A stretch of 64,000 nt of DNA from Williamsia sp. DF01-3. Lineage in GTDB: Bacteria; Actinomycetota; Actinomycetes; Mycobacteriales; Mycobacteriaceae. Positions 1,019 to 32,172 of the stretch are shown here, one piece after another. The stretch spans positions 1,550,001 through 1,614,000 of the forward strand of contig NZ_JALKFS010000005.1 of NCBI RefSeq assembly GCF_023051145.1, in the 5' to 3' direction. A program made the translations under genes and the position numbers. The notes beneath the pieces are model-generated. The model made no database searches. It saw nothing but the letters and a program-made list of their open reading frames with translations, and was not told where the DNA came from. Each line of letters starts with the position of its first letter. Position 1 is the stretch's first letter.

Positions 1019-1031
1019 AAGAGACGAACCC

Positions 1032-2219: not shown

Positions 2220-2264
2220 TCTAGTCGAACCAGTTGTGCAACAGAAACTTAAGAAAGGACCAGG

Positions 2265-3035
2265 ATGAACATCTCAGAATCAGTTGCCATCGTCACCGGT
2301 GGTGCCGGAGGTCTCGGCGAAGCCGTCGTGCGTCGGCTGCATGCGGCCGGCGCTCACGTTGTCGTCGCGGATCTCGCAGAGGAGAAGGCACATTCGCTGG
2401 CCGAAGAGCTGGGTGAGCGAGTGGTGTACTCCGCCACCGATGTCACCGATGAGGACAGTGTCGCCGCGACGATTGCGCTCGCGAACGGGCTGGGTCACCT
2501 GCGCGCGGCCGTTATAGCGCACGGCGGTTGGGGTGTTGTCGAGAAAGTAGTGGGCCGGGACGGGAGCCCTGCAAGTCTGTCGGGGTTCACCAAGACCTTA
2601 GATCTGTATCTTACCGGAACGTACAACGTGTTGCGTTTGGTCGCAGCTCAGATGGCAACGTTGGACCCAGACGGCACCGGCGAGCGGGGAGCGGTTGTGG
2701 CCACCGCGTCGATCGCGGGTTATGAGGGACAAATTGGCCAAACTGCTTATGCAGCCGCCAAAGCCGGTGTCATCGGACTCACCATCGCTGCAGCCCGTGA
2801 TCTGAGTTCTGTTGGTGTGCGGTTCAACACGATCGCACCCGGAACCATGCGCACGCCAACCATGGAGTCGGTGGGCGAAGAGGCTATTGCTAAGTTCGCC
2901 GCCAACGTTCCATTTCCGAAGAGGCTCGGTGAACCAGATGAGTTTGCCGACACGGCAATGTTCCTGCTTCAGAACGGCTACGCGAACGGAGAAGTCATAC
3001 GTCTTGACGGTGCGCAACGTTTCGGACCTCGATAG
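2265..3035 (+). CDS. Short-chain dehydrogenase/reductase (3-hydroxyacyl-CoA type)
   Basis: A 256-residue classical SDR. The NAD(P)-binding TGGAGGLG is at residues 11-18, and Ser149, Tyr162 and Lys166 (YAAAK) form the catalytic triad. An acidic residue after the second strand (VVVADL) favours NAD. The central NNAG motif is replaced by AHGG, as in some 17-beta-HSD10-like enzymes that oxidise 3-hydroxyacyl-CoA. A Shine-Dalgarno site (AAGAAAGGA) precedes ATG 2265. By position between hydratase, dehydrogenase and thiolase genes it is likely the third beta-oxidation step of the same pathway. Confidence 0.88.
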   Translation: MNISESVAIVTGGAGGLGEAVVRRLHAAGAHVVVADLAEEKAHSLAEELGERVVYSATDVTDEDSVAATIALANGLGHLRAAVIAHGGWGVVEKVVGRDGSPASLSGFTKTLDLYLTGTYNVLRLVAAQMATLDPDGTGERGAVVATASIAGYEGQIGQTAYAAAKAGVIGLTIAAARDLSSVGVRFNTIAPGTMRTPTMESVGEEAIAKFAANVPFPKRLGEPDEFADTAMFLLQNGYANGEVIRLDGAQRFGPR

Positions 3036-3041
3036 AGCTTC

Positions 3042-3488
3042 ATGACCAACCTCAAAAGGAGTTTCAGCCATGCGACGGATCACATCATGACTCGGCAACC
3101 GATTGCGGAGAATCTGTTTGTCGAAGATGGGGACGAGGTTCGGCTCTTGGTGTCCACGTCGTCGACGTCGCCTCATCTGGTCTTTCCTGCCGAGCCGGGG
3201 CGAGACGTGATTTCGCTGAATACCGAAGGACGGCTCTATACCTGGACCAGTCAGGAGTTTCGGCCGCCCGCGCCGCCGTACATAGGCCCCGAACAGTTCA
3301 CCCGATTCGGAGTCGGGTACGTCGACTTTCCCGAGGGGGTCCGGGTAGAAGGTCGGTTGACCACTTGCGACCCGGCCGAGCTCGCCATCGGGCAACGGAT
3401 GCGCACAGTGGTGATCCCGTTTGGTGAAGCTGTCACGTTCGCGTTCGAACCGGTCGAGGACTCGAACCAGGCGAGGAGTACTCGATGA
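3042..3488 (+). CDS. DUF35 OB-fold protein, partner of the next thiolase
   Basis: A ChsH2/DUF35-like acyl-CoA-binding OB-fold protein. The N-terminal segment PIAENLFVEDGDEVRLL followed by LVFPAEPG is the family pattern, but the four zinc-ribbon cysteines normally found there are absent, so this copy lacks the rubredoxin-like zinc site. The C-terminal OB part has GVGYVDFPEGVRVEGRL. ATG 3087 (MTRQPIAENL), which fits the family N-terminus, is an alternative to ATG 3042; AAAGGAG at 3055-3061 does not decide between them. The stop overlaps the thiolase start (ATGA at 3485), typical of coupled DUF35-thiolase or DUF35-aldolase pairs that form one complex. Confidence 0.8.
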   Translation: MTNLKRSFSHATDHIMTRQPIAENLFVEDGDEVRLLVSTSSTSPHLVFPAEPGRDVISLNTEGRLYTWTSQEFRPPAPPYIGPEQFTRFGVGYVDFPEGVRVEGRLTTCDPAELAIGQRMRTVVIPFGEAVTFAFEPVEDSNQARSTR

Positions 3489-4630
3489 GTGGCGTATCAA
3501 TCATCGGGGTCGGGTTGCATCCTTTCGGCCGGTTCGCCGGGAAGCAGGCGCTCGATATGGGTGCCGAGGCAGCCAAACTCGCACTCGCAGATGCCGGCGT
3601 GGAATGGCCCCGCGTTCAGATCGGCTTCGCGGGCAGCCTTGAGGTCTCGAATCCGGATGCGGTGGTGGCGAAACTTGGTTTGACGGGGATTCCTGTCTAT
3701 GGCGTCTTCAACGGGTGCGCCACGGGCAACACCTCGATCAGCATGGCGGCGAAAGCCATCGAGCACGGCGAAGCGGATGTGGCGATCGCGATGGGTTTCG
3801 ACAAGCACCCCAAGGGCGCGTTCTCCGCCGATCCGGCGGTGCTGGGACTACCCGAGTGGTACGCCCAGACAGGATTGTTCCTCACTACGCACTACTTCGG
3901 CATGAAGATCAATCGCTACATGCAAGAGTTCGGCATCTCGCGCGAGACTCTTGCGCGCGTGGCTGCAAAGAACTTTCGCAACGGTGCCCGGAACGATAAG
4001 GCCTGGCGTCGGCGAGAGATGTCAGAGCAGCAGATACTGGATGCTCCATATCTGAACTACCCCTTGACGCAGTACATGTACTGCGCGCCAGACGAAGGTG
4101 CTGCGGCGGTGGTGCTGTGCCGTCGCGATCTGGCCGCCCAGTTCTCGAACGCACCGGTACATCTCGAGGCCAGCGTCCTACGCACCCGACGTGACGGGGC
4201 CTTCGAGATGCAAAGTCCTTCCCTGCCGACTGAAGCTGTGGCAAGTCCTTCCGTGGACGCCTCGCGCGCAGCTTTCGAAATTGCCGGGATTGGACCTTCC
4301 GACGTCGATGTCGCGCAACTACAGGACACAGATGCAGGTTCTGAGGTGATCCATATGGCAGAGAATGGTTTCTGCGGGGACGGGGAACAGGAGAGATTGA
4401 TCGGCGAAGGCTACACGGAAATCGACGGCACTTTGCCGGTGAACACAGACGGTGGGCTGATGGCCAACGGCGAGCCGATTGGTGCATCGGGGCTGCGGCA
4501 GATCCACGAGATTGTTGTGCAACTTCGTGGCAGAGGCGGTGCCCGGCAGGTGCCGGGGGATCCAAGGGTCGGTTACACACATCTCTACGGTTCGCCGGGC
4601 ACTGGAGCGGTCACGATTCTGACTCGGTGA
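3485..4630 (+). CDS. SCP-x/Ltp2-type thiolase or aldolase
   Basis: A thiolase-fold protein of 381 residues, coupled to the DUF35 gene by an ATGA overlap. It would cleave a 3-ketoacyl-CoA, or act as a retro-aldolase as Ltp2 does with its DUF35 partner in steroid side-chain removal. Cys78 (FNGCATGN) is in the nucleophile position. The catalytic His of the GHP motif is replaced by Glu330 (ANGEPIGASG), and the C-terminal Cys-Gly motif by YGSPG (about 368-372). The normal Cys-His-Cys set is therefore incomplete, favouring an aldolase-like or altered mechanism. Tyrosines near the C-terminus (GYTHLYG) could serve instead, as proposed for Ltp2. That last point is inference. Confidence 0.82.
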   Translation: MSGVSIIGVGLHPFGRFAGKQALDMGAEAAKLALADAGVEWPRVQIGFAGSLEVSNPDAVVAKLGLTGIPVYGVFNGCATGNTSISMAAKAIEHGEADVAIAMGFDKHPKGAFSADPAVLGLPEWYAQTGLFLTTHYFGMKINRYMQEFGISRETLARVAAKNFRNGARNDKAWRRREMSEQQILDAPYLNYPLTQYMYCAPDEGAAAVVLCRRDLAAQFSNAPVHLEASVLRTRRDGAFEMQSPSLPTEAVASPSVDASRAAFEIAGIGPSDVDVAQLQDTDAGSEVIHMAENGFCGDGEQERLIGEGYTEIDGTLPVNTDGGLMANGEPIGASGLRQIHEIVVQLRGRGGARQVPGDPRVGYTHLYGSPGTGAVTILTR

Positions 4631-4639
4631 TCCACAACG

Positions 4640-4984
4640 GAGAACGGTCCAGAACCTTGAAGACACACGGCACTCACCTTTGCCGCTCAACGCAGCGGGC
4701 AGTACTACGTGGTGGTGAACACGCATCTGGCGCCTGCGAAGGCACAATACATTTCGGCAGATTCGGGCGCGAGTGTTCTGGTGACCTCAGAATCGTGCAT
4801 AGCTCTGTTTCCTGAGGACGGCGTTGTCGATTATCGAATAATGCTGGACGAGTCAGCTACACCCGGGTGGGCGATCTTCGAGTACTCGTCCTGCCCCCGG
4901 CCTCGATGGCGGACCAATCGGAAGGGCTTTCTCCTCTACTCGTCAGGCACGACTGGACCCCAACGGGAAGTTGCGAAAGGTTGA
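4640..4984 (+). pseudogene. Acyl-CoA synthetase (FadD-like) internal fragment
   Basis: One reading frame holds a clear internal piece of an acyl-CoA ligase: ALTFAAQRSGQYYVVVNTHL (from 4670), DSGASVLVTSE, and the AMP-binding motif YSSGTTG near 4945. An in-frame TGA at 4658, the missing N- and C-terminal thirds, and the abrupt stop after EVAKG show that it is a relic. It probably activated the substrate of the surrounding CoA pathway before decay. No start codon or ribosome site fits. Confidence 0.8.
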
Positions 4985-5083
4985 GCTCGAGCTCTGACCA
5001 GCCACGTCTGTGCTAAGCACTCTGATATGGTACTTGAATTACACTATATAGATCTCGCGCCTACGTCGCGGGTCAGGAGAGAG

Positions 5084-6226
5084 ATGGCACTCACAACGAC
5101 CGCCGAGCAAGAGGCACTGCGCGACGTAATGCGTGCGTATCTTGCCAAATTCTCGAGTGAGGACGACGTTCGAAAAGTTATGGATGGCGACTTGGGCTAC
5201 GACCCCAGGGCGTGGACCGCGCTCGCGGAGCAAATTGGTGTGCAAGCTTTGGCGATTCCCGAGCAGTACGGCGGCGGTGGCTTCGGGTTCGACGATCTCG
5301 CGGTAGTGATGGAAGAAGCCGGACGGACATTGTTTCCGGCTCCGTTGCTGTCCACAGTCGTGCTGTCTTCCAGTGCGCTCTTGCTTTCCGGCGATGAACA
5401 AGCTTGCGCGACCTTTCTGCCCCAGATCGCATCAGGCGAGTTGATATCGACTGTCGCTGTGGCAGAGAAGAAGGCGCAATGGCAAGAGGATGATATCCAG
5501 ACTGTGGCGCGACGTTCGGGCGCCAGCTGGAGGCTGACAGGCGCAAAGCCGTATGTCCTCGACGGCTTCGAGGCCCGCCTGCTGATAGTCGCCGCCCGTA
5601 CCGACGCCGGCGTCTCGCTGTTCGGCGTGAACGCGGACGCCGCAGGTGTCGGCGTAGATCGACACACCTCGATGGACATGACTCGGCGGCATTCGGCAGT
5701 CACCCTGGAAGACACACAGGCAGACCTCCTGGGCAAAGATGGCAACGGATGGCCCGTACTGAAAGAGCTGTACGACCGGGCTCTGGTGGCTCTTGCCGCA
5801 GAGCAGGTCGGCGGTGCTGCTGCCGTATTGGACTCGACAATCGACTATCTCCGGTTACGACACCAGTTCGGCCGCCCGATCGGCTCGTTTCAAGCGATAA
5901 AACACCGGTGCGCCGATTTGCTCGTTGAACTCGAGTCGGCCAGATCGGCGGCCGCGTACGCGATTGCCGCGATCAGTTCGGGTGCCGATGACGTAGCGGT
6001 TGCGGCTTCGATCGCCAAGACATATTGCTCGCGCACTTTCTATCACGTTGCAGCAGAGAGTATTCAGATGCACGGAGGTATTGGGTTCACCTGGGAACAC
6101 CAGGCACACCTCTACTTCAAGCGTGCGAAGAGTTCCGATGTGCTATTTGGTTCTCCGGCGTTTCACCGGGAGCGGATTGCAAAAGCCATCGGGCTGTTCG
6201 AAGGCGGTGCTCTTGCGGGTGTTTAG
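5084..6226 (+). CDS. Acyl-CoA dehydrogenase (FadE-like, 380 aa)
   Basis: A second acyl-CoA dehydrogenase, 380 residues from ATG 5084 (MALTTTAEQE), preceded by AGGAGAGAG. It has the C-terminal FadE pattern QMHGGIGFTWEHQAHLYFKR rather than the TSEIQ ending. That type often forms an alpha2-beta2 enzyme with a TSEIQ-type subunit such as the one at 1032. Pairing is inferred, not shown. Its stop overlaps the next gene (MaoC hydratase), so the two are likely co-translated. Confidence 0.88.
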   Translation: MALTTTAEQEALRDVMRAYLAKFSSEDDVRKVMDGDLGYDPRAWTALAEQIGVQALAIPEQYGGGGFGFDDLAVVMEEAGRTLFPAPLLSTVVLSSSALLLSGDEQACATFLPQIASGELISTVAVAEKKAQWQEDDIQTVARRSGASWRLTGAKPYVLDGFEARLLIVAARTDAGVSLFGVNADAAGVGVDRHTSMDMTRRHSAVTLEDTQADLLGKDGNGWPVLKELYDRALVALAAEQVGGAAAVLDSTIDYLRLRHQFGRPIGSFQAIKHRCADLLVELESARSAAAYAIAAISSGADDVAVAASIAKTYCSRTFYHVAAESIQMHGGIGFTWEHQAHLYFKRAKSSDVLFGSPAFHRERIAKAIGLFEGGALAGV

Positions 6227-6671
6227 TTCGGCCGACGATCTCAAGGCTGCGGTGGGCGAAACCTTGGGTGCCAGTGATTGGTTGGCGGTTACGCAGGAAC
6301 GTGTGAACCAGTTCGGCGCAGCAACGGGTGACAACCAATGGATCCATGTGGACGTCGAAAGAGCTCAGGCCGAGAGTCCATTCGGTGGTCCTATCGTCCA
6401 CGGATATTTGACCCTCTCGCTTTTGCCGATGTTCGGCGCGCAGGTCTACAGCATCGAGGGTGCCAAGATGGGCATCAACTATGGGTCCAACAGAGTGAGA
6501 TTCCCGGCGCCCGTTCCCGTTGGAGCGCAAATCCGCCTGCTCTCGACGCTCACCGATGTCGCTGATATCAAGGACGGGTCGCTGCAACTGACCGTCGAGC
6601 AAATCGTAGAGATAAAGGATGCCCCGAAGCCCGCGCTCGTGGCCGAGATCTTGAGCAGGGTGGCATTCTAA
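6219..6671 (+). CDS. MaoC-like (R)-specific enoyl-CoA hydratase
   Basis: A hotdog-fold hydratase of 150 residues. The hydratase-2 motif is visible: FGAATGDNQWIHVD with the catalytic Asp-His pair, then SPFGGPIVHGYLTLSLLP. It would hydrate a 2-enoyl-CoA made by the preceding dehydrogenase, with which it overlaps by 8 bases. GTG 6219 is my start choice; TTG 6213 is also in frame and better spaced from AAGG at 6201. Similar single-domain proteins include mycobacterial HtdZ (Rv0130). Confidence 0.85.
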   Translation: MFSSADDLKAAVGETLGASDWLAVTQERVNQFGAATGDNQWIHVDVERAQAESPFGGPIVHGYLTLSLLPMFGAQVYSIEGAKMGINYGSNRVRFPAPVPVGAQIRLLSTLTDVADIKDGSLQLTVEQIVEIKDAPKPALVAEILSRVAF

Positions 6672-14347: not shown

Positions 14348-15391
14348 ATGACCAGCCACCAACCATCGCTCGCTGGGCCTGACAGCGAGCTGGCTTATCG
14401 GTTGCCGCGGTCCTACCGCGGGGATTGGCAGCTCTACATCGACTGGTGCACCGCCTTTGACCTTGACCCAATCGGGTCGTCGCCGATCACGACAGCCCGA
14501 TACTTAGCTTTTGAGCCCGGGCTGTCGCGGGCCACGCTGCGCCGCCGGGTCTCGGCCATCAACACCGCCCACCGCCTCACCGGACGGACGCCGCCGGGCA
14601 CGATCACCGCGGTGCGGGCTCTGCTGTCCACCCGAGAACGCCACCAACACAACGCAGTACAGGCGATAACGCGGTTGCCGACGCATGGGTGGCCGGCCGG
14701 GTTGTTCGGCCGCCGCGACGCCCTCATCCTCACCCTGGTCTGCCAGTTGGGTGTCCCAGTCGGGGAGGTGGGGGAGTTGCGGTGCGGAGACATCGCCGTC
14801 GACCCCGTCGACGGCACTGTGCACATTGGCCGACACCACCACATCACCGCCGCACCCAATCTCGATGATCGATATGGGCTGTACGCGGTCTGGACACGCT
14901 GGGCCCTGCTCCGAGACCTCACCCTCCGCCGACCCTCACCCTTGTCCTGGGCACCGGTTCTCCATCAGGCCCCCGCCCGACCACCCGCACCCAGCCTCGT
15001 CGCCTATGAACCTGCCGATTCCGACGCTGTGTTGTTGCCAGCGTTCGATCGGTGGGGCAACCCGACTGCACCCATCGGCGACACCACCACCGGCCTGTCA
15101 CCGCGGGCGGTCTCGGCGATCCTGCACACCCACCTACGCGCGAGCGGCAGACCCGTCACCGACCGCGGACTGTGGGCACAAACACTGGCCGATCGCCACG
15201 CCACGCCCACCGAAAACGATAGCCCCGCAATGCCTGTCGTTGATCTGCCCGACACCTACGACGACGGGGTTTCCGCGCGCCACCGCGCTACAGCTGACCT
15301 GGGCGACCTCGACGACATCTTCACCGCCCTCGACCAGCAAACCGCTGAGCTCCTGGCGCGCACCGAACACCTCCTCTCCCAGATTGTCTGA
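14348..15391 (+). CDS. Degenerate tyrosine-recombinase-like partner protein
   Basis: A 347-residue protein immediately downstream of the active recombinase. Residues 20-75 (SYRGDWQLYIDWCTAFDLDP, then TTARYLA and LRRRVSAINTAHRLTG) match the core-binding domain. The following segment LILTLVCQLGVPVGEVGELR aligns with the first catalytic helix, but the Arg is gone, and no HxxR or nucleophile Tyr box follows. It likely binds DNA or the active partner without cutting. This is inference from missing residues. Gene order and spacing imply one transcript. Confidence 0.7.
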   Translation: MTSHQPSLAGPDSELAYRLPRSYRGDWQLYIDWCTAFDLDPIGSSPITTARYLAFEPGLSRATLRRRVSAINTAHRLTGRTPPGTITAVRALLSTRERHQHNAVQAITRLPTHGWPAGLFGRRDALILTLVCQLGVPVGEVGELRCGDIAVDPVDGTVHIGRHHHITAAPNLDDRYGLYAVWTRWALLRDLTLRRPSPLSWAPVLHQAPARPPAPSLVAYEPADSDAVLLPAFDRWGNPTAPIGDTTTGLSPRAVSAILHTHLRASGRPVTDRGLWAQTLADRHATPTENDSPAMPVVDLPDTYDDGVSARHRATADLGDLDDIFTALDQQTAELLARTEHLLSQIV

Positions 15392-20274: not shown

Positions 20275-21579
20275 TCACGGCATTTTGTCGCATTTGACCT
20301 CCCTTTTGTTTGACGTCAGCAGTCCGGTCGCTGTGCTCGGCTTCCATCCGGGAGTGGTGCGAATGGTGTAGGCAACAAATGCTTGGTATTGCCCAGGGAC
20401 GCATTTTGTTCCCACATTGAACTTGGTGGTGCCAGAGGTGTTTCCTTGGACCGTTTTTGTTTGAGGGCTTGGTGAGACCACGCGGGTCCCATCTCGGAAA
20501 AGCTGGAAAGAAACGGTGTAGGTAAATCCGATGCTGTTCTCTTTAGGAGCGCAGGTGATGGTCATCTCTGCATTCGCGGTGCCTCTGCGGTGGCTGGAGT
20601 CATGAGGGTCGTGCGCTGTCAGATTGCATGCCACGGTTCTGGTTGCACGCTGAGCATCGGGCGCTCCTGGTTCGAGGGATTCTGCCGGCGGCTGTGGCGA
20701 TGATGGAGCAACTGTGGTGTCAGATGTCGGCGGGTTGAGCGTCGTTGTTGTTGCTGCAGGTGACCGTGGCTGCATGACGCCCGACGTCGGCTCCTGGGGT
20801 TCGGAAGACTCAGCAGATGCCGGCGTTTGCGGGGTTGGTTGAGACGTGTCGCTCTGGCCGGGGGTTGTTGTTTCGGCGGGTGGAGGGGCCGTGCGTGCAT
20901 CCACGTCGCTTGGCTCGAAACTGAGACTTTGGGTCACGCCTGTTGTGTCGTCGGTGAGTCCGTCCTCGACGTCCATTGCGTTCCAGCTGATGTGGCCGCC
21001 TTGAAAGTCCTGCCGTTTGCCTCCGTTGTAGTCGTATTCGTCGGACGTAGGGAATCCCAATGGGCCGGCTTCCCAGTCTGAGATCGCCCAGGAGTCTCGG
21101 ATCTCGCCCCATACGGAATGGGCGCCGGTGGCAGTGGACCAGTACACCGACCCGCCTTGGAAGTGATTGAACCGTCCGGGCACTCGTGTCGGGCGCTCAC
21201 GAGTGGTCGGGTATCCGAGCGATCCGCCTTCGTAGCCAAGCTCACCCCACTTATCGCGGATCAGTCCCCCAATCTGGTTCGCGTGGCCACCTGACACATC
21301 ACGGTGCCAGTAGATAGAGCTGCCCTTTGCAAAGGGCTGCCACCGTCCACCGTTGAGGGCTGGTAGCTCGGTGTTCGTCGCGTTCCCGAAGAATCCGAGG
21401 CCTCCTGCCTGGTTGAACTCCTCGAGGATTTTGCCGCCGACGCAGTACCCATAAAAAGGATCGTTGTTTTGGCAGCGCGGATCGCCAGAGGCGGGTGCTG
21501 TCAATGCGGCTGACGCGACGAGTGCGGTCACCGTGGCTGCTATCGATCGGCTGACGTATTTCTTGAGACGAACGCTCAT
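20275..21579 (-). CDS. Secreted LGFP-repeat cell-wall protein
   Basis: A 434-residue exported protein. The signal peptide (MSVRLKKYVSRSIAATVTAL then VASAALTAPASG) follows ATG 21579, which has a GGGGGA site. Residues 50-200 carry three to four LGFP repeats (GGLGFFGNATNTE, GSLGYPTTRER, GPLGFPTSDEYDY, each followed by an aromatic FxxGSIYW/FQGGSVYW motif). A Pro/Thr/Ser-rich linker then leads to a C-terminal domain with three or four cysteines (VACNLTAHDP, ITCAPKEN, GTKCVPGQY, EVKCDKMP). LGFP modules are thought to anchor proteins in the mycolic-acid cell wall, which supports a mycolata host. Confidence 0.85.
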   Translation of the reverse strand: MSVRLKKYVSRSIAATVTALVASAALTAPASGDPRCQNNDPFYGYCVGGKILEEFNQAGGLGFFGNATNTELPALNGGRWQPFAKGSSIYWHRDVSGGHANQIGGLIRDKWGELGYEGGSLGYPTTRERPTRVPGRFNHFQGGSVYWSTATGAHSVWGEIRDSWAISDWEAGPLGFPTSDEYDYNGGKRQDFQGGHISWNAMDVEDGLTDDTTGVTQSLSFEPSDVDARTAPPPAETTTPGQSDTSQPTPQTPASAESSEPQEPTSGVMQPRSPAATTTTLNPPTSDTTVAPSSPQPPAESLEPGAPDAQRATRTVACNLTAHDPHDSSHRRGTANAEMTITCAPKENSIGFTYTVSFQLFRDGTRVVSPSPQTKTVQGNTSGTTKFNVGTKCVPGQYQAFVAYTIRTTPGWKPSTATGLLTSNKREVKCDKMP

Positions 21580-21811
21580 CAAAATCCCCCAAATGTCAGC
21601 TCTTGCGACGACAAGTGCCTTGTGCGTGCGTGAAGTGATACGACGACTTCCGTGGTCGTCTGAATTTGTATATCCATCACTTGAACCCCTCAATATCAGA
21701 TGATGTCGGAGCTCTTAGCTGATCAAACTGGTGGGTAATAGGCCCCCGTTGCAAGGTGATTGTTACCTTAACGTTATCTGCGAATCGGTGTGTCTAGATG
21801 TATGTGAAAGG

Positions 21812-22740: not shown

Positions 22741-23829
22741 TGGGGTGGTTGATTCTGTCGAGTACGTCGAATTCGAGTCCGTCGGCTTGTGCGATGTAGA
22801 TGTCTTGGTTTATTTGGTTGCCGGTGAGGGTGGTTCGTCCGCGGGGGGATTCGAATACTCGGTCGTGTGGGGGGTTGTTGGGTGGGGTTTGTAGGGCGGC
22901 GAGGAGCATGATTGCTTCGTAGCAGGATTCGCCGATGCTGTTGAGTCGGGGGAGCGGTCGCCGTAGGTGTTTTGGTAGGTGGTGGCGAAGTCGAGGGCTT
23001 GGCTGGTGAGGAGGGTGTCGAAGTAGCCGGCGCTGGCGTAGAGGTTGTGGTTGCTGTTTGAGTCGGTGGCCAGGAGGACGTTTTCTTCGATGATGGGGCT
23101 GAATCTGGCTATGTCGCTGGTGAGTCCGGCGTTGGTGAATGCTCGGCTGAAGGACACTGAGTCTTGGCCGACGAGGAGCATGATGACTCCGTCGGGTGGG
23201 TTGGTGGTGAGGTCGTGGACGACGGTGTCGTAGTTGTCTGTTCCGAGGGGTACGTACTTTTCGCCGGTGATGGTGAGGTTGTTGGTTCGGGTGTAGTGGC
23301 GGACGTACTGGGCGGTGTTGTGGGGCCAGATGTAGTCGTTTCCGACGATGGCCCAGCGTTGAAGTCCCATTTCTGTGTGTAGCCAGTGGAGGGCGGGTCC
23401 GATTTGCATGGCGGGACTTTCGCCGGCGTAGACCACGTGTGGGCTTAGTGTCCCTCCTTCGTGGAGCGCGGCGTAGACGTAGGGGATGCGGCTTGCGGTG
23501 GTGCGTGCTACCTCGGCTCGTACGGTGGAGATGTGCCACCCGGTGATGGCGTCGATGGCGCCTTGTGTGATGAGGGTGTCGACGTGGTGGGCGACCTGGG
23601 GCGGGGTGAGGCCTCCGTCGATGGGTACCAGTTCGACTGGTCGTGAGCGTATTCCGTCGGTTGCGTTGAGTCTGTCGACGGCGAGTTGGCCGCAGGAGTG
23701 GCAGGAGGGGCCGTAGATGCCGGCCGGTCCTGATTGGGGGTAGATGTAGCCGATGCGATACGACTGGCCTGGGTGGTTGGGTCTCGAATGTGCCGATCCT
23801 CGGGTACGTTCAACAGGAGGGTGGTTCAT
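22730..23829 (-). pseudogene. AmiC/FmdD-like amide-binding protein, apparent -1 frameshift
   Basis: A periplasmic-binding-fold protein of the branched-chain amino acid/amide group (AmiC, FmdD, UrtA). It begins at ATG 23829 without a signal peptide, as in the cytoplasmic amide sensor AmiC. RIGYIYPQSGPAGIYGPS, IDAITGWHISTVRAEVART and RWAIVGNDYIWPHNTAQY are typical. At G-run 22948-22952 (five G on the plus strand) one base seems missing; adding it restores RSPRLNSIGESCYEAIMLLA and a stop inside the dif-like site. It diverges from a MarR gene and lies near an amidase, so it probably senses the amide substrate. A sequencing error would make it intact. Confidence 0.75.
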
Positions 23830-24593: not shown

Positions 24594-25631
24594 ATGCGCC
24601 ATGGAGATATTTCGTCGAGCCCAGACACTGTGGGTGTGGCGGTAGTCAACTACAAGATGCCTCGGCTGCACACCAGGGCCGAGGTGTTGGCGAACGCCGA
24701 GAAGATCGCCGAGATGGTTCGCGGCATCAAACAGGGCATCCCCGGCATGGATCTCATTGTGTTCCCGGAGTACTCCACTCAGGGAATCATGTACGACACA
24801 GACGAGATGTACGACACCGCGGCCTCGATTCCGGGCCCCGAGACCCAGGTCTTCGCCCAGGCTTGCCGCGATGCCAAGACCTGGGGTGTCTTTTCGCTGA
24901 CCGGTGAGCAGCACGAAGATCATCCCCATAAGCCGCCCTACAACACTCTCATTCTCATGAATGATCAGGGTGAGATCGTACAAAAGTACCGAAAGGTGCT
25001 GCCATGGACTCCTATCGAACCGTGGTACCCGGGGTCGGGCACCTACGTGTGCGATGGGCCGAAGGGGATGAAGGTCTCGCTGATCGTCTGCGATGACGGC
25101 AACTATCCCGAGATCTGGCGTGACTGCGCCATGAAGGGAGCAGAACTCATCGTTCGGGGGCAGGGGTACATGTACCCCGCCGCCGACCAGACCGTGATGA
25201 TGGCCAAGGCGATGGCCTGGGCCAACAACGTCTACGTGGCGGTCGCCAACGCTGCCGGCTTCGACGGGGTCTACACCTATTTTGGGCACTCGGCGGTCAT
25301 CGGTTTCGATGGCCGGACTCTCGGAGAGACCGGTGCTGAAGAGTACGGAATCCAGTACGCCCAGCTGTCAATTAACGAGATCCGCGACGCTCGTAAGAAC
25401 GATCAGTCGCAGAACCATCTGTTCAAACTGCTGCACCGCGGATACACCGGCGTTCACGCCGCCGGCGACGGCGACAAAGGGATCGCTGACTGTCCCTTCG
25501 ACTTTTACAAGACCTGGGTGACTGATGCGCAGAAGGCGCAGGAGAACGTCGAGGCGTTCACCCGGGACACCATCGGCGTCGCCGATTGCCCGGTGGGCGA
25601 CCTGCCGGTGGAGAAGGTTCAGGAAGTCTGA
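24594..25631 (+). CDS. amiE: Aliphatic amidase (acylamide amidohydrolase)
   Basis: A 345-residue AmiE-type member of the nitrilase superfamily, hydrolysing short aliphatic amides such as acetamide or propionamide to acid and ammonia. The Glu-Lys-Cys triad falls at the standard positions: Glu59 (FPEYS), Lys134 (KYRKVLPW) and Cys166 (VCDDGNYPE). The N-terminus [20 protein letters not shown] is the AmiE signature and fixes the start at ATG 24594. AmiE is a cytoplasmic hexamer and needs no metal. The MarR and amide-sensor genes lie upstream, and an AAA+ gene follows by 7 bases, implying one operon. Confidence 0.93.
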
Positions 25632-25638
25632 GACTGCC

Positions 25639-26676
25639 GTGTCCACCACACCAGGAACCGAGATTCACCAGCCCGAGGACCCCCTTGCTGCCCATCTGGC
25701 AGCAACGGTGATCGGGCAACACGGTGCGGTCGATGCGGTGAGCCGAGCGGTGCGCATCGCACGCGCTGGCCTGGGCCACCACGACCGGCCCTTGTCGGTG
25801 CTGTTGTTCGCCGGCCCCACCGGTGTGGGCAAGACCTCGATGGTGCGGGCGCTGGCGGGCGCACTACGAGCAGGACCCGAAGACTACTGCCGGATCGACA
25901 TGAGCGCGTTGGCTCAGGAGCACTATGCTGCGTCGTTTTCCGGTGCGCCCCCGGGATATTCCGGAAGCAAGGAGTCGACGACTCTTTTCGACAAGAGCAG
26001 GATTGAGGGCGATCCGTACACGCCGGGGTTAGTGCTCTTCGATGAGGTCGAGAAAGCGCATCCGGTCGTGATCAGGGCCTTGCTCCATGTGCTCGACAAC
26101 GGTGTGCTGCGGCTCAGTTCGGGGGCCGGGACCATCGGATTCCGGAACTGTCACGTCATCTTGACCACCAACCTGGGAAGCCGCCGATCGGTGGCGCGCC
26201 GACCGTGGTGGAGCTTTCGTTCGCCCGACGATGCCATCGGGAAGGCGATCGAGAGCTTCTTCGACCCGGAGTTTTTCAATCGGATTGACGAGGTCGTCAG
26301 GTTTGCGGCGATCGACCGCGGAGCCGCGCGTCAGATCGTTGACCTCGAGCTTGGCCGCATCACCCAGGTGCTCGCTAGACGGTACGTGCACATCGACTTC
26401 GACGACAGCCTCGTCGGTTACCTCGTCGAGCAGGGCTTCGATCCGCGGTATGGCGCACGCGCATTGCGCAGATCGATACGTCGCCATCTACTGCCGGCGA
26501 TCGCCGATGCTGTGGACGCGATTGCCGCGACACGACGCGACCCCGCCGCTCTACATGTGGTGGTCGACAGCGGCCAGATGATCGCATGCCGTCCATCACA
26601 CTCTTGCTCCCCGACGACGGTGGGGCCGGAGCAGGCCGCCGAAGGATTTTTGGTTTCACCAATGGAAGGAAAATAA
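25639..26676 (+). CDS. AAA+ ATPase, ClpA/ClpB D2-like
   Basis: A 345-residue single-ring AAA+ protein from GTG 25639. Walker A GPTGVGKTS is at 59-67, a pore-loop-like GAPPGYSGS at 102-110, Walker B LVLFDEVEKAH at 131-141, sensor 1 TTNLGS at 176-181, an Arg finger in FFNRIDEVV and sensor 2 GARALRR at 272-278. It lacks the N-domains and ClpP-binding loop of classical Clp ATPases, so it is a stand-alone remodeller. It sits between the amidase and two tubulin-like genes and overlaps the first by one base. A role in assembling or loading these proteins is inference. Confidence 0.88.
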   Translation: MSTTPGTEIHQPEDPLAAHLAATVIGQHGAVDAVSRAVRIARAGLGHHDRPLSVLLFAGPTGVGKTSMVRALAGALRAGPEDYCRIDMSALAQEHYAASFSGAPPGYSGSKESTTLFDKSRIEGDPYTPGLVLFDEVEKAHPVVIRALLHVLDNGVLRLSSGAGTIGFRNCHVILTTNLGSRRSVARRPWWSFRSPDDAIGKAIESFFDPEFFNRIDEVVRFAAIDRGAARQIVDLELGRITQVLARRYVHIDFDDSLVGYLVEQGFDPRYGARALRRSIRRHLLPAIADAVDAIAATRRDPAALHVVVDSGQMIACRPSHSCSPTTVGPEQAAEGFLVSPMEGK

Positions 26677-28226
26677 TGTCTACCTCTGGACACGACCACG
26701 GCCACGACCACGGCCATTCCCACGATGCCTGCGACAGTGAGTCTTTGGGACTGACCACCGACCTGTCCCGGATTGAAGCGCTGGTGGGTCAGGGAGTTCA
26801 CCGCATCGGCGACCACGAGGGCCCGTTCTCCCTGCACGTGTTGGGAATCGGGAAGACCGGCGCCAACGTGATCGAGAGCATGATCGCATCACATTCGGGT
26901 GGCGGTGTAGCGGCCGGCACGGATGTCGCCTTCGATGCCCTGGCCATCGACATCGGAGACGCCGAACTGACCTCGGTCACCGAGGCGCTGGCCGCTGCCC
27001 CGGACCGCGTCAGCGGACAGATCGTGAACATTCCCGCCCTGGACAACGCCACCTTGTTCAACGGGTTGCGCCGGTATCGCGAGTTCCTCAAGACCGAGTA
27101 CCCCCGCTATTACTGGAACCCCAACTACGAGCCCTGGTTGCCGAACGACCTCGACATCCCCGCCGCCGGTTCACACTTCCCGCGAGCGGTGTCCAAAGCG
27201 TTGTACGGCGTCGACTATTACACCGGCGGGGACGTTTCGGTAGCTCTTGATGGGTTCGCGGACAAGGTCCTCGACAGCAAAGACACCCCGATCGTGTGCG
27301 TGGTGTTCTCGCTCGCCGGCGGCACCGGCAGCGGCATCGTCGTGGAGCTGGCTCGTCACCTGTCCAACATCCGCCTCGGTCGACGGGCTCTGGTGTTGGG
27401 CATCGGGGTCCTGCCGTCCGACGGCGATCCGGTCGAACTCAGCGACGGGCGTACCTTCATCACCATCAACGAACTCGACTGCATGGTCGACGCCGACAAG
27501 AACAAGGGCGTCATGACGGTGTGGGGCGACCTGTACAAGAACCCCTTCACAGCAGGCTTTTTCGCCGTGCCACAAAACGCGGTGTACGAGGAGACCGGCA
27601 GCGTCGAGCAAACTCACGCCCGGATCGATCAAGGTCTGAGCGATTTTGTGCTCCGCGACGGCGGCGTGCATCTGTATGAGTCCATCAAAGCGCTCAACTG
27701 GCTCAACGTCCCGGCCAACGCCTGGCACCCGGCGACCCGCGGTGACCAGACCGACAAGTGGATCAGCCTGCTCAGCGTCGGCGCCTCCGCGGGCACCCTG
27801 CTCAGCACCCAGGAGCTGACCGACACGGCGGTGCCCGAGTTCGCGGAGGTCCGTCTCTTCGGGGCGCAAGCCGACGATTCTGCGGCATCGGATGCCGCGC
27901 AGGGTGTCACCGCTGTCGTCTCGACTCTTGTCGGTCCGACCGGACTCGGATTCGCCACCTCCGGACCCGAGGCGGTGAGTCTGTACATCCCGCGACTGAG
28001 CAAGCTGGACCTGAAGTCCTTCGTCCCGAGCCGCGTGGCCTACGACAGCCTGGAATGGGAAGAGAAGCTCATGCGCCACTCCTGGCTGTTGGATCTGGGT
28101 GTGCTGCTCTGTGAGCCCTCGACACGGTTCGAAGGTGTCGGCGGTGAATGCCTGCTCGGATGCGCGTGCTGGGTCGTTGTCCCGCACGCGGCGATTCGCG
28201 GCGAACTCGATCTCGTGGCCGGCTGA
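26676..28226 (+). CDS. Tubulin/FtsZ-like GTPase with His-rich N-terminus
   Basis: A 516-residue protein starting in a TAATG overlap with the AAA+ gene, after GGAAGGA. Residues 6-17 are HDHGHDHGHSHD, a likely Co/Ni/Zn-binding tail. A tubulin-like nucleotide domain follows: HVLGIGKTGANVIESM (T1-like loop, 54-69), AIDIGDAE (T3-like) and SLAGGTGSGIVVELARHL, whose GGTGSG at 215-220 is the tubulin signature. Later parts (NELDCMVDADKN, WGDLYKNPF, and a long C-terminal region ending in CLLGCACWVVVP) match only its paralogue at 28568. It is too divergent to call FtsZ. Filament formation is possible but unproved. Confidence 0.78.
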   Translation: MSTSGHDHGHDHGHSHDACDSESLGLTTDLSRIEALVGQGVHRIGDHEGPFSLHVLGIGKTGANVIESMIASHSGGGVAAGTDVAFDALAIDIGDAELTSVTEALAAAPDRVSGQIVNIPALDNATLFNGLRRYREFLKTEYPRYYWNPNYEPWLPNDLDIPAAGSHFPRAVSKALYGVDYYTGGDVSVALDGFADKVLDSKDTPIVCVVFSLAGGTGSGIVVELARHLSNIRLGRRALVLGIGVLPSDGDPVELSDGRTFITINELDCMVDADKNKGVMTVWGDLYKNPFTAGFFAVPQNAVYEETGSVEQTHARIDQGLSDFVLRDGGVHLYESIKALNWLNVPANAWHPATRGDQTDKWISLLSVGASAGTLLSTQELTDTAVPEFAEVRLFGAQADDSAASDAAQGVTAVVSTLVGPTGLGFATSGPEAVSLYIPRLSKLDLKSFVPSRVAYDSLEWEEKLMRHSWLLDLGVLLCEPSTRFEGVGGECLLGCACWVVVPHAAIRGELDLVAG

Positions 28227-28229
28227 CAG

Positions 28230-28547
28230 ATGGCCAGACTGGACGGCGACAAGCTCGACTGGGACATGATCGTCGCCAAATACGGGGACGGAGCCGAAGT
28301 CGACTCGTTGCCGGGAGGGGCGAAGATCTCGGTCAGCGGCGTCGACGACGAGCACATCCATGTCACACATCGACTGTGGAAAGCCTCCCTCACCCGCTCG
28401 AACCTGGAGCGGGCGATCGACATGGTCAACGCAGGCACCATGACCCGCGTCGCCAACGAGTTCATCGACCAATACCGCACCACCATTGCCGACGAGCGTC
28501 CGACGGTGACCGCCACTGTCCTCAAAGACCTCGGCTACCTGGACTAG
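28230..28547 (+). CDS. Small protein between the two tubulin-like genes, 105 aa
   Basis: An unrecognised soluble protein from ATG 28230, 3 bases after the stop of the first tubulin-like gene. MARLDGDKLDWDMIVAKYGD is followed by a likely beta segment (KISVSGVDDEHIHVTHRLWK) and helices (SNLERAIDMVNAGTMTRVAN, EFIDQYRTTIADERP). No signal peptide, membrane segment or cysteine cluster. Tight packing with the flanking genes suggests a stoichiometric partner or adaptor. Function unknown. Confidence 0.75.
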   Translation: MARLDGDKLDWDMIVAKYGDGAEVDSLPGGAKISVSGVDDEHIHVTHRLWKASLTRSNLERAIDMVNAGTMTRVANEFIDQYRTTIADERPTVTATVLKDLGYLD

Positions 28548-28567
28548 AGAGAAAGCGAGACCACACC

Positions 28568-30280
28568 ATGGCATTTTCTATGTACCACAGCGCCACCGGT
28601 AAACAATCCCCACACTGCATCAACATCGTCGGCATCGGAAAGGCAGGAGCGCAACTCATCGACGCGTTCTTGCGCACCGGCGAGATCGAAGACCTACTCG
28701 AAGATCCCCGTGCTCGATTCACCGCCTTGGCAGTGGACATCGGTGAAGGCGACATGCGCCAGCTGCGGCAGTACGCAGACTCCTTCCATTCACGCCTGGA
28801 GGAACGAGGCATTCCCTCCGAACGTGCGCAAATACGCACGGTCAGCCTCGATGTTCCCTCCGCCGACGAGCTAGCTGAGACCGTCAACCGGTTCCCTCAG
28901 TTCCTGGGCCGCGAGTTCCCGCGCTTTGACTGGAACGAGCCCGCGCCCGACACCTTCTCGTGGCTGCCGTCCACCGCGAACCTGCCCACAGGTGAGAAGA
29001 ACTACGTCGCCCAGCTCGAAGTTCCCTCTGCCGATGAGCACATTCCGCGTTCACTGGCCAAGGCCATCTACGGCCGGGCGTACTACGACGGGGACCGCCC
29101 GCTGTACACCGAGATCCGCGATTTCGCGGACAGCATCGACAAGACGGGCCTGCCGTCGATGGTCTTGGTCGCGTTCGGCATCGGCGGTGGCACCGGCAGC
29201 GGCATGGTCGTGGACCTGGCCCGGCACTTGACCAACGGCGCCTTGGGCCGCCGGGTCCCGGTGATCGGCGCGGGTTTCCTGCCGTGCTCAGGCGATCCGC
29301 AATACCAACGCGGTGCATCGGTGTACACCACGCTCAATGAAATCGATTGCATGCTCGACGAACGCAAGAACGACAAGATCACCGCGATCTGGGGTGATAT
29401 GTACAAGAACCCCTTCAACGGTGGATTCCTGGCCCTGCCCCAGGAGCAGTCGTGGGAGCGGTTGTTCCGGTACACGACGATCAAAAAGGGTGTCTTGCCC
29501 GAGGTTCGCCACCAGCAGGCTCTGCATGTCACGAACAAGTTCGTCGATGACTCATTCGCCCGGTATGTGGTCCATGACTACGGCAGGGAGATCTTCCGTG
29601 TCCTTCGCGCGGGGGGCTTTACCGGGGCGCCGCACGAACGCATCAGCTTCGGTCCCCGAAACTTCACCATCTTCAACGTCGCCAAGTTGATGCACCCTGG
29701 CGTGGAGGTGTTGCCGGGCGAGCCGATGAGCAAGTGGAGGGCCGCGATCAGCGATTGGATCGGCTATATGCCCAAGTGGATGGGCCTGCGGGAGGGATTC
29801 AAAACCGAATACCTGGAAGCGCATACCTATTCGGCACGGACCAAGTGGAATCCCACGCTCCAGCGCACACTCGAGGAAACCCTGAGCCGATACCTTCTTC
29901 CCGGCGAAGACGGATTCTTGCGGACCTCCGACCACGAGTTCTTCGACGAGCTGACGCTGTACACCAACATCATCATCCCGGGTGTTGCCAAAGCCGACCT
30001 CACCGCGTTCGCCGAGGCAAAGAAACTCTACGACGCCGTACCGACAGCCGAACGCATCGAACTGTCGTCCTGGCTGCTGGAACTGGGCATTGTTCTCTCA
30101 GAGCCCTCCGACCAGTTCGAAGGGATCATGGGACAAGCGTTGCCCGGATCGCCAGGGTGGAACACCCACCTCACTATCGAAGAGTTCGGCAACGCCGACG
30201 CTGACCTGCCCGCGACAGCGGTCGACTACACCACCGAAGTCATGACCGAGGTTGTCAAGACAGTGGTTCCCACACCCTGA
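28568..30280 (+). CDS. Tubulin/FtsZ-like GTPase, second paralogue
   Basis: A 570-residue paralogue of the 26676 protein, without the His tail. The T1-like loop is INIVGIGKAGAQLIDAF (19-35), T3-like ALAVDIGEGD, and the tubulin signature is complete as FGIGGGTGSGMVVDLARH (203-220, GGGTGSG at 206-212). Shared segments with the first copy include IPRSLAKAIYGRAYYDGD, NEIDCMLDERKNDKITAIWG and SWLLELGIVLSEPSDQFEGI. Two non-identical subunits in one operon recall heteropolymers such as BtubA/B or TubZ pairs, which is only an analogy. GAGAGAAAGCGAG precedes ATG 28568. Confidence 0.8.
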   Translation: MAFSMYHSATGKQSPHCINIVGIGKAGAQLIDAFLRTGEIEDLLEDPRARFTALAVDIGEGDMRQLRQYADSFHSRLEERGIPSERAQIRTVSLDVPSADELAETVNRFPQFLGREFPRFDWNEPAPDTFSWLPSTANLPTGEKNYVAQLEVPSADEHIPRSLAKAIYGRAYYDGDRPLYTEIRDFADSIDKTGLPSMVLVAFGIGGGTGSGMVVDLARHLTNGALGRRVPVIGAGFLPCSGDPQYQRGASVYTTLNEIDCMLDERKNDKITAIWGDMYKNPFNGGFLALPQEQSWERLFRYTTIKKGVLPEVRHQQALHVTNKFVDDSFARYVVHDYGREIFRVLRAGGFTGAPHERISFGPRNFTIFNVAKLMHPGVEVLPGEPMSKWRAAISDWIGYMPKWMGLREGFKTEYLEAHTYSARTKWNPTLQRTLEETLSRYLLPGEDGFLRTSDHEFFDELTLYTNIIIPGVAKADLTAFAEAKKLYDAVPTAERIELSSWLLELGIVLSEPSDQFEGIMGQALPGSPGWNTHLTIEEFGNADADLPATAVDYTTEVMTEVVKTVVPTP

Positions 30281-30301
30281 CCCGGCCTTGCGGCCGACCA
30301 G

Positions 30302-30333
30302 AGTTGCCAACGCCCGACGGCGATGGCAACTCG
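30302..30333 (+). promoter_or_regulatory. Long hairpin between second tubulin-like gene and cbtB
   Basis: GAGTTGCCA pairs with TGGCAACTC, and inside it CGCC pairs with GGCG around a 4-base loop, giving 13 base pairs with one A-A mismatch. There is no T tract. It could attenuate or terminate between the tubulin-like genes and the transporter genes, or stabilise the transcript end. I see no cobalamin-riboswitch consensus in 30281-30410. Confidence 0.5.
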
Positions 30334-30410
30334 GTCCGCCGTTGCATCCGCTTCACCACCAACGATCGACCCAGATCCTTGGTGAAGACACCAACCTAGG
30401 AGATATCACG

Positions 30411-30653
30411 ATGAGCACGGCTGCTGAACATGGCGCATTGCCACAGACCTTGACCAAGGGGCTGACCCTGGACACCCCGACAGTGTCGGCCATCAACGTG
30501 GCACTGATGCTGACCATGACCACTGTCCTGGCGCTATTGGCCTACTACTTCCTGGGCTATGACCAGGGGGCGGTATCGGTGTTCGGGAGCGACACTCACG
30601 TGCACGAGTTCGTCCACGATTCCCGTCACTTCCTCGGCTTCCCCTGCCACTGA
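30411..30653 (+). CDS. cbtB: CbtB cobalt transporter subunit
   Basis: An 80-residue protein with one membrane helix (NVALMLTMTTVLALLAYYFL) and the CbtB C-terminal metal motif rich in His, HVHEFVHDSRHFLGFPCH. CbtB is the small subunit of the CbtAB cobalt uptake system. CTAGGAGATATC precedes ATG 30411. The cbtA gene follows 15 bases later. Linkage to an amidase and a His-tailed tubulin-like protein is unusual; a cobalt enzyme such as nitrile hydratase, which makes amides for an amidase, could be the link, but none is in the window. Confidence 0.9.
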   Translation: MSTAAEHGALPQTLTKGLTLDTPTVSAINVALMLTMTTVLALLAYYFLGYDQGAVSVFGSDTHVHEFVHDSRHFLGFPCH

Positions 30654-30668
30654 ACAGGACCCAGCATC

Positions 30669-31472
30669 ATGGAATACAAGTTCATCCGCAGCGGCCTGCT
30701 CGCAGGCCTGCTGGCCGGGATCGCCGCATATGTGTTCGCCCGCATTGTCCTCGAACCCTTGGTGACGAAGGGGATCGATTATGAGGAGGCGCGCTCGCAC
30801 GCCGAGTCGGCTATTACCGGTGAGCACGCCCACGAACATGAGGTGTTCAGCCGGTCGGTCCAGGAGAACATCGGTGCGGGGGTCGGTTCGATTGTCTTCG
30901 GGCTGGTCATGGGCGCCTTGTTCGCCGTCGCGTTCACCGTCGTGTGGGGCTACGTCGGTCGCCGCCACCGAGGAGCCGACCCGCGGCTGGTGGCTGCATT
31001 GCTGGCAGCGGCCGGATTTGTCGCGGTGTACCTCGTGCCCTTTGCTGCCTATCCAGCGAACCCGCCCGGTGTGGGAAACGACGAGACGATCGGGGAGCGC
31101 ACCGGGGCGTATCTGACGATCACCCTGCTCTCGGTCGGGTTCGCGATCGCTGCAGCGGTACTCGGATTGTGGCTGGTGGGCAAACTCGGTGGGCTCCTGG
31201 CCGCCATCAGCGCCGGCGCGTTCTATGTGGTCGCGGTAGCAATCTCTATCGTAGTGCTCCCGTCCTACAACGACGTACCCACAGCACTCACTGACGGCAA
31301 CGAAATTCTCTTTGATGGATTCCCCGCCGCCACCCTGGCTGATTTCCGGTTCTACTCCGTCATCAACCAAGTGGTCCTCTGGACGGTCCTGGGAATCGTG
31401 TTCACACTCGCACTCACACGAATCGCACGACGCGCCAACATCAGCACCCCGGAGTCGGCGTTGGTCAGCTGA
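30669..31472 (+). CDS. cbtA: CbtA cobalt transporter
   Basis: A 267-residue CbtA with five to six membrane segments (LLAGLLAGIAAYVFARIVL, IVFGLVMGALFAVAFTVVWG, LLAAAGFVAVYLVPFAAYPA and others). The cytoplasmic-side GEHAHEHEVFSRSVQE motif after the first helix and FAAYPANPPGVG are family hallmarks. It works with CbtB to import cobalt. Its stop at 31470 is followed by a 238-base gap that contains the small palindrome GGTTGTATCAACC (31628). Confidence 0.9.
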   Translation: MEYKFIRSGLLAGLLAGIAAYVFARIVLEPLVTKGIDYEEARSHAESAITGEHAHEHEVFSRSVQENIGAGVGSIVFGLVMGALFAVAFTVVWGYVGRRHRGADPRLVAALLAAAGFVAVYLVPFAAYPANPPGVGNDETIGERTGAYLTITLLSVGFAIAAAVLGLWLVGKLGGLLAAISAGAFYVVAVAISIVVLPSYNDVPTALTDGNEILFDGFPAATLADFRFYSVINQVVLWTVLGIVFTLALTRIARRANISTPESALVS

Positions 31473-31710: not shown

Positions 31711-32172
31711 GTGCCACATCAAGGGTGCGATTTCACACAAAAAGAGTTCCAACACTGGCTCGATCGCGTCCGCGACACTCATGACGCTGTCCGATTCACC
31801 GTCGGGCACCGCCTACATGGGGACTGGGAGCGTGCCGAGGCTGTGTCTATCCAGGTAGTCGTCGAAATGCTCGCCAAGCCCAGAGTATTTCGCTATCAAG
31901 GGCTGCCCTACTCAGGGCGCATCGGAGCTGTCGCAGAATCGATCCTCGCTGGCCCTGCAGAGCGAGCGGCCGAGCTACCAGACTGGCCCACACTGACCAG
32001 CTACCTCGAGCAGATGTCCCCGCAACTGCGGCCGGTACTCATCGGAGCATTCGTCGACGGCCTCGACGACGAACACATCAGCTCCCAGATCGGAATGCCC
32101 ACCGCGATCGTCGTGACGATGCGCAAAGAAATCGAGCAGTACCTGTCCCAATCGGCAAGTGCTGGCAGATAG
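31711..32172 (+). CDS. Sigma-factor-like regulatory protein, 153 aa
   Basis: From GTG 31711, well spaced from AAGGAAG. The N-terminal half resembles sigma-70 region 2 (TVGHRLHGDWERAEAVSIQV then VVEMLAKPRVF). The C-terminal half has a region-4-like helix-turn-helix (MSPQLRPVLIGAFVDGLDDE HISSQIGMPTAIVVTMRKEI). The match is weak, so an ECF-like sigma or related helix-turn-helix protein is my best call. It follows the cobalt genes on the same strand and might regulate them. Confidence 0.5.
   Translation: MPHQGCDFTQKEFQHWLDRVRDTHDAVRFTVGHRLHGDWERAEAVSIQVVVEMLAKPRVFRYQGLPYSGRIGAVAESILAGPAERAAELPDWPTLTSYLEQMSPQLRPVLIGAFVDGLDDEHISSQIGMPTAIVVTMRKEIEQYLSQSASAGR

Follow-up and report, generated by a model that had tools for sequence, protein, structure and literature searches.

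A probable locus for small-nitrile assimilation, of the acetonitrile hydratase kind, with tubulin-like putative enzyme subunits, in Williamsia sp. DF01-3

Acetonitrile hydratase (ANHase) was reportedly described in papers of 2007 and 2010. According to the portions of the sources used here, the enzyme of Rhodococcus jostii RHA1 is a cobalt nitrile hydratase (NHase) for small aliphatic nitriles, its genes are arranged in the order alpha-AnhE-beta, and AnhE is its cobalt metallochaperone (PMC3511329, PMC3680314, PMC7193024). Passages of further papers report one cobalt, two copper and one zinc for the RHA1 enzyme (PMC3766881) and affirm that ANHase matures by subunit swapping (PMC7329996); the latter is denied in a passage of PMC3511329, which is followed here. 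The present analysis concerns a 64,000-nt stretch of the genome of Williamsia sp. DF01-3 (the window), in which the seven genes at 24594-31472 very probably constitute a small-nitrile assimilation locus of the ANHase kind. Loci of this kind are already known; the surprising part is the tubulin-like enzyme. The genes are the following.

24594-25631, + strand: AmiE, aliphatic amidase (acetamide to acetate and ammonia); NCBIfam aliphatic amidase equivalog NF009802 at 688.6 bits (cut-off 427), catalytic triad
25639-26676, + strand: single-domain ClpB-D2-like AAA+ protein, probably AmiB-type; PF07724 and PF10431 (ClpB_D2-small)
26676-28226, + strand: AnhA, 516 amino acids, putative tubulin/FtsZ-like ANHase subunit; PF13809, identity to RHA1 pRHL2, GECLLGCAC
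28230-28547, + strand: AnhE, 105 amino acids, putative ANHase metallochaperone; identity to RHA1, position between A and B
28568-30280, + strand: AnhB, 570 amino acids, putative tubulin/FtsZ-like ANHase subunit with GGGTGSG; identity to RHA1 pRHL2, Foldseek
30411-30653, + strand: CbtB, proposed cobalt transporter subunit; PF09489 at 38.9 bits
30669-31472, + strand: CbtA, proposed cobalt transporter subunit; PF09490 at 232.4 bits

In the list of open reading frames (ORFs) of the window all seven genes lie on the + strand. Among the first five, amiE and the AAA+ gene are 7 bp apart, the AAA+ gene overlaps anhA by 1 bp, and anhE follows anhA after 3 bp and precedes anhB by 20 bp; the AnhB-CbtB and CbtB-CbtA gaps are 130 and 15 bp. 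The list and the gap measurements agree with the original prediction, which had described seven same-strand genes tightly spaced up to the second tubulin-like gene.

The order of a tubulin-like protein (A), a 105-amino-acid protein and a second tubulin-like protein (B) is that of ANHase, alpha-AnhE-beta. Plasmid pRHL2 of RHA1 carries genes for MarR, an AmiC-like protein, AmiE, A, a 99-amino-acid protein, B and a NicO transporter, the A-E-B genes lying at 163335-166915. Identity between the window and pRHL2 proteins was 75.1% for A, 74.2% for AnhE and 73.5% for B, covering 92-96% of the query. The computed mass of the 99-amino-acid protein was 11.09 kDa, in agreement with the 11.1 kDa reported for AnhE. 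Because gene order, size and context agree, we infer that the pRHL2 genes are the published anh genes, and the window copy is predicted from its sequence to have nitrile hydratase activity. The window thus resembles RHA1 in gene order, in the 11-kDa middle protein and in the aliphatic amidase and metal transporter nearby; it differs in having CbtBA instead of NicO, amiE and anhA separated by an AAA+ gene, and a location on a 5.25-Mb contig, whereas the RHA1 locus is on a plasmid. For this core, the earlier statement that no system with such a set had been described was wrong.

Ordinary cobalt or iron NHases with alpha and beta subunits share with ANHase the presumed reaction, cobalt, an activator protein and a neighbouring amidase. 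AnhA and AnhB differ from them in having masses of about 55 and 63 kDa, and 13 A and 13 B proteins gave no match to the Pfam domains of ordinary NHases. An ordinary NHase alpha gene was not found on pRHL2, the only replicon of RHA1 searched. Elsewhere in the Williamsia source genome, two places match the family of ordinary NHase alpha subunits (G000:C5:320311-320862 and 242853-243425).

Several points weigh against the identification as ANHase. The link to pRHL2 was made from the order, size and context of the genes and not from a locus tag. According to a passage of PMC7329996, Cys-x-Leu-Cys-Ser-Cys is found in every known NHase alpha subunit, and the motif C[ST]LCSC was present in none of 24 AnhA and AnhB proteins; the statement counts against ANHase only if its author included this enzyme. 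In a table of PMC6941271 RHA1 is listed with one nitrile hydratase, which is not specified. Finally, the cluster tallies given below count records rather than independent events, because several clusters are near-identical in the tree (L012/L019, L020/L021, L016/L022 and window/L010/L011).

Sixteen clusters were compared, namely the window, L010-L017, L019-L022, L032, L033 and L075. They derive from Williamsia, Gordonia, Mycobacterium, Tetrasphaera and Pseudonocardia and from plasmids and other actinobacteria; five are from Rhodococcus plasmids, one (the sole proteobacterial cluster) is from an Agrobacterium plasmid and three are from further actinobacterial genomes. The plasmid matches H2, H3, H5, H7, H8, H10, H11 and H15 and two Shinella plasmids were left out, so that the 16 are a subset of the existing clusters. 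AnhE, whose start codon was set by hand in some loci, sits between A and B in all 16 clusters, and AmiE was found in 14. Since the same genes occur together in other genera, the clustering is not due to chance, and the co-occurrence that the original prediction had raised extends beyond one assembly. The 15-kb L032 stretch lacks AmiE; beside its ANHase set lie genes for ordinary NHase (alpha and beta), an Amidase-family protein, an acetamidase/formamidase and a CbiX-domain protein, all at 872-6467, and for CobW.

A cobalt-type transporter, recognized by Pfam or by record annotation, accompanied 15 of the 16 clusters (CbtBA in 7, CbiM-type in 6, NicO in 2); the cluster without one, L033, is a 6.3-kb contig. 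CbtB and CbtA of the window had been called clear, which held for the Pfam cut-offs; the cut-offs of NCBIfam TIGR02459/TIGR02458 were not reached. Going by the family name, CbtBA would carry cobalt, and NicO may carry nickel. From this transporter context the window ANHase may depend on cobalt.

The anh genes are rare in the sampled genomes. AnhE was detected in 13 of 72,556 plasmid records and A or B in 15, consisting of the 13 with AnhE (12 Rhodococcus, one Agrobacterium) plus two Shinella plasmids, on which AnhE gave no match. With the window's genome counted each time, A occurred in 3 of 61 genomes of relatives, and B in 3 of 396 genomes of the phylum and 2 of 397 of the order. A scan of 84,980 species, one genome each, matched 17 stretches and yielded 6 confirmed loci, all actinobacterial; since it used short peptide patterns of the window AnhB only, with no profile search outside Actinomycetota, distant relatives would have escaped it. 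Viral contigs contained no relatives of either subunit. A shortened AnhB paralogue of 382 amino acids is encoded on the Agrobacterium plasmid (L017 13592-14740), where it groups with the AnhB of the same plasmid in the tree, and on a Shinella plasmid (L018 8968-10116). In L075 (genome G683) extra AnhE-like tblastn matches at 5113-5466 and 14417-14707 flank the AnhA-AnhE-AnhB set; the ORF listed at the second of these is on the opposite strand.

AnhA and AnhB are likely members of the tubulin/FtsZ superfamily. At E (expectation value) 0.01 or better, PF13809 and PF00091 were the only Pfam families matched, each of them by 13 of 13 A and 13 of 13 B proteins. The window AnhA scored 27.8 bits with PF13809 (cut-off 27) and 23.5 with PF00091 (cut-off 33), and AnhB was below both cut-offs (22.8 and 27.5 bits, respectively). 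When the A profile was searched against solved structures, CetZ1 (4b46) was the best match (E 5.4e-5), followed by gamma-tubulin (0.038), FtsZ (0.058) and TubZ (0.24), with unrelated proteins from 0.38. The combined A+B profile matched CetZ1 at E 3.6e-5, and single-sequence searches against solved structures gave E values of 0.005 and 0.011. AlphaFold models of A and B were built from 14-row alignments and compared by Foldseek, in which chains of about 430-447 residues in complexes were assumed to be tubulins. For the B model the first 34 rows were FtsZ, TubZ, CetZ, tubulin or chains of microtubules or gamma-tubulin complexes (best E 2.5e-5), and for the A model the first 8 rows belonged to the same tubulin-type classes (best E 4.2e-3).

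Other results speak against this placement. The B profile alone reached CetZ only at E 0.074, and unrelated proteins appeared from E about 0.3 in the searches with the A, B and A+B profiles. The models were weak: the mean predicted local distance difference test (pLDDT) values were 62.4 and 58.6, the predicted template modelling (pTM) scores were 0.72 and 0.64, and long C-terminal stretches had pLDDT below 50. The A model had no Foldseek match at E 0.001 or better, and among the rows seen the TM-scores to tubulin-type matches were 0.2-0.5, with root-mean-square deviations above 7 A. The original prediction would have been refuted by structure predictions lacking a tubulin fold; the weak models do not show such a lack. 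Comparison by hhalign of the A and B profiles with FtsZ, using a set of 16 FtsZ proteins and no Tubulin_2 protein, gave 5-37% probability in local and below 0.1% in global mode.

With the superfamily (CetZ, FtsZ, TubZ, tubulin; FtsZl1/Tubulin_2) AnhA and AnhB share a fold predicted from weak models, the T4 glycine loop and the Pfam matches; they differ from it by long insertions and an apparent role as a metalloenzyme. A paper on two new FtsZ-like families links FtsZl1 genes to vWA-domain genes and to membrane remodelling, and its main text contains neither 'Rhodococcus' nor 'amidase' (PMC2875224). The literature searched, which leaves out most subscription journals, yielded no work linking nitrile hydratase with tubulin-like proteins, the tubulin superfamily or FtsZ, and nothing on how ANHase folds or where its active site lies. 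The tubulin-superfamily nature of the ANHase subunits is possibly new.

Near its C-terminus the window AnhA contains GECLLGCAC (residues 490-498). A C-terminal GECxxGCAC is present in at least one subunit in all 16 clusters: 12 have it in A alone, the Agrobacterium cluster has it in B alone, and L032, L033 and L075 have it in both subunits. In the unrooted tree, A and B rows were separated with 100/100 support; the placement of the Agrobacterium A is unsure because of its very long branch. That three clusters carry the motif in A and B alike points to its ancestral presence in both. Part of PMC7329996 describes how ordinary NHases hold their metal via Cys-x-Leu-Cys-Ser-Cys. The Cys-x3-Cys-Ala-Cys of AnhA is a candidate cobalt site, predicted from its conservation, and may have arisen by convergence with the Cys-x2-Cys-Ser-Cys claw of the ordinary enzymes. 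The histidine-rich stretch that had been taken for a tail of the first tubulin-like protein, GHDHGHDHGHSHD, is in fact at the N-terminus of AnhA. It is missing from the A proteins of Agrobacterium, L032 and L033, and is therefore accessory.

Taken jointly, ANHase would be a metalloenzyme whose two subunits belong to the tubulin superfamily and in which the fold of a cytoskeletal GTPase now serves as a cobalt catalyst. The metal would be held in the C-terminal Cys-x3-Cys-Ala-Cys claw of one subunit, a claw ancestral in both, kept mostly in A and, in the Agrobacterium lineage, in B, and convergent with the Cys-x2-Cys-Ser-Cys of NHase. We regard this joint proposal as evenly poised between being right and being wrong.

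AmiE of the window has Glu59, Lys134 and Cys166, which we take to be the catalytic triad in AmiE numbering, and the downstream AAA+ protein has Walker A, Walker B, the TTN sensor 1, NRID and GAR; in both respects, as in the presence of GGTGSG and GGGTGSG in the two paralogues, the original reading of the proteins was borne out. The best NCBIfam match of the AAA+ protein spans positions 560-845 of ClpB, i.e. the second AAA domain. It could be a maturation factor of ANHase, acting in metal insertion or remodelling, rather than a partner of the amidase, and its gene does adjoin anhA in the window, L010, L011, L013 and L014. CbbQ-type AAA+/VWA pairs are known to activate metalloenzymes in other systems, and of the two such pairs on the Agrobacterium plasmid (L017 10727-13545 and 17899 onward) one follows AnhB; the other, however, follows an amidase. 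A ClpB-like AAA+ gene was found near only 10 of the 16 clusters and was absent from pRHL2, from the L022 and Agrobacterium plasmids and from the fetched stretches of L032, L033 and L075. Moreover, on the plasmid of Arthrobacter sp. U41 (the plasmid only was searched) the AAA+ gene follows AmiE without anhAB, and this plasmid was not among the plasmid records matching AnhA or AnhB. In Pseudomonas aeruginosa amiE adjoins amiB, annotated as 'probable chaperone' in a table of PMC10213629. A function in ANHase maturation is conceivable but on balance doubtful. Since the AAA+ gene follows AmiE without anhAB in Arthrobacter and is missing from pRHL2, an AmiB-type protein is more likely, and from gene context the protein is probably a ClpB-D2-like companion of the amidase operon. 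The idea of the AAA+ protein as a core part of a tubulin-like machine was set aside on the same two observations. Like the amidase operon of P. aeruginosa (amiE-amiB-amiC-amiR-amiS), the window has AmiE next to a chaperone-type gene and an AmiC-type sensor nearby; unlike it, the window has MarR instead of AmiR, plus ANHase and cobalt uptake. AmiS was not found among the window proteins scanned.

Retention of the glycine loop raised the possibility that AnhA and AnhB are the enzyme but still bind GTP, with filaments or rings as the state in which the nitrile hydratase is active or stored. GGTGSG (T4) was kept in B in all 16 clusters, and the two-subunit A/B arrangement is reminiscent of tubulin dimers. 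In A, however, the signature was kept in 14 clusters, the window included, and was changed to DGTGSG or GGVGSG in the other two. Furthermore, the FtsZ-type T7 motif N-x-[DE]-x-x-[DE] was found in none of 24 proteins within about 60 residues C-terminal to the predicted core helix, a position taken from the low-confidence models; two B proteins had a chance-like match far downstream. We infer that filament formation and GTP turnover have been lost, and a GTP-binding filament enzyme appears unlikely.

The tubulin resemblance itself could be coincidental, arising from a glycine-rich loop in a Rossmann-like protein of unrelated origin. The sequence match is centred on the GGTGSG loop, the models have low confidence and low TM-scores, and Rossmann-type enzymes appear in Foldseek from rank 9 for A. 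Nevertheless, all 26 proteins matched both tubulin models, Pfam gave no further family for any of them, tubulin-type structures occupied the top Foldseek ranks for both subunits, and with the A and A+B profiles only tubulin-type solved structures were matched under E 0.3. A chance resemblance is thus very improbable.

Least credible of all is a cytoskeletal, metal-binding scaffold that, aided by the AAA+ unfoldase, organizes AmiE. The tubulin-like signature, the Foldseek matches and the AmiE gene near 14 of the 16 clusters speak for it. Against it, the RHA1 counterpart of the pair is an enzyme, ANHase; AmiE and AAA+ occur without the pair on the Arthrobacter plasmid; the 15 kb of L032 contain the pair but no AmiE; and the FtsZ-type motif was at the expected place in 0 of 24 proteins. 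This was the part of the original prediction, a metal-binding cytoskeletal pair and an unfoldase organizing or maturing an enzyme, that was not upheld: the pair corresponds to the structural subunits of ANHase and the 105-amino-acid protein to its metallochaperone AnhE. The assignment to amide/nitrile metabolism and to cobalt was supported by context.

Upstream of the seven-gene set there are two regulatory genes.

22810-23829, - strand: AmiC-like periplasmic-binding-type regulator; PF13458 at 190.2 bits
23788-24321, + strand: MarR-family regulator; PF12802 and PF01047 above cut-off

The tblastn match of the AmiC-like gene to L010 and L011, two Williamsia relatives in which it is an ORF of 366 amino acids, is broken at residue 294. 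Because the last approximately 45 residues are in a different frame relative to these relatives, the window copy is, judged by its sequence, probably frameshifted. Downstream of CbtA, a 153-amino-acid ORF (31711-32172, + strand) is by eye similar to small proteins near other ANHase clusters (L010 13098-13562, L013 4350-4928, L015 8178-8687, L019 11669-12121, L032 7931-8452, L033 4169-4687). When five such proteins were scanned, sigma-70 region 4 was above cut-off in L015 and below it in L019 and L032, and the window and L013 copies had no family match; the ORF is possibly a regulator of the cluster. The protein encoded at 20275-21693 (- strand) contains LGFP repeats; proteins with such repeats form a cell-wall family.

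In the proposed pathway CbtBA would import cobalt and AnhE (28230-28547) would pass it to apo-ANHase. The AnhA/AnhB complex would then hydrate acetonitrile and similar nitriles to amides, AmiE would split the amide (acetamide) into acid (acetate) and ammonia, and AmiC and MarR would regulate expression. Acetonitrile is a small toxic solvent, and the locus would be a route for its consumption. This nitrile-degradation route is hidden in annotation because annotated plasmid records (NC_008270.1 and others) name the subunits 'tubulin-like doman-containing protein' or 'hypothetical protein'. The superfamily placement, together with the conserved cysteine motif, makes the question of the fold and active site of ANHase directly testable. 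If the joint proposal is true, a nucleotide-type fold would have turned into a metalloenzyme scaffold, a filament-type GTPase fold would have been recruited for metal catalysis, and ANHase would be, to our knowledge, the first member of the tubulin superfamily whose function is to convert a small molecule that is not GTP.

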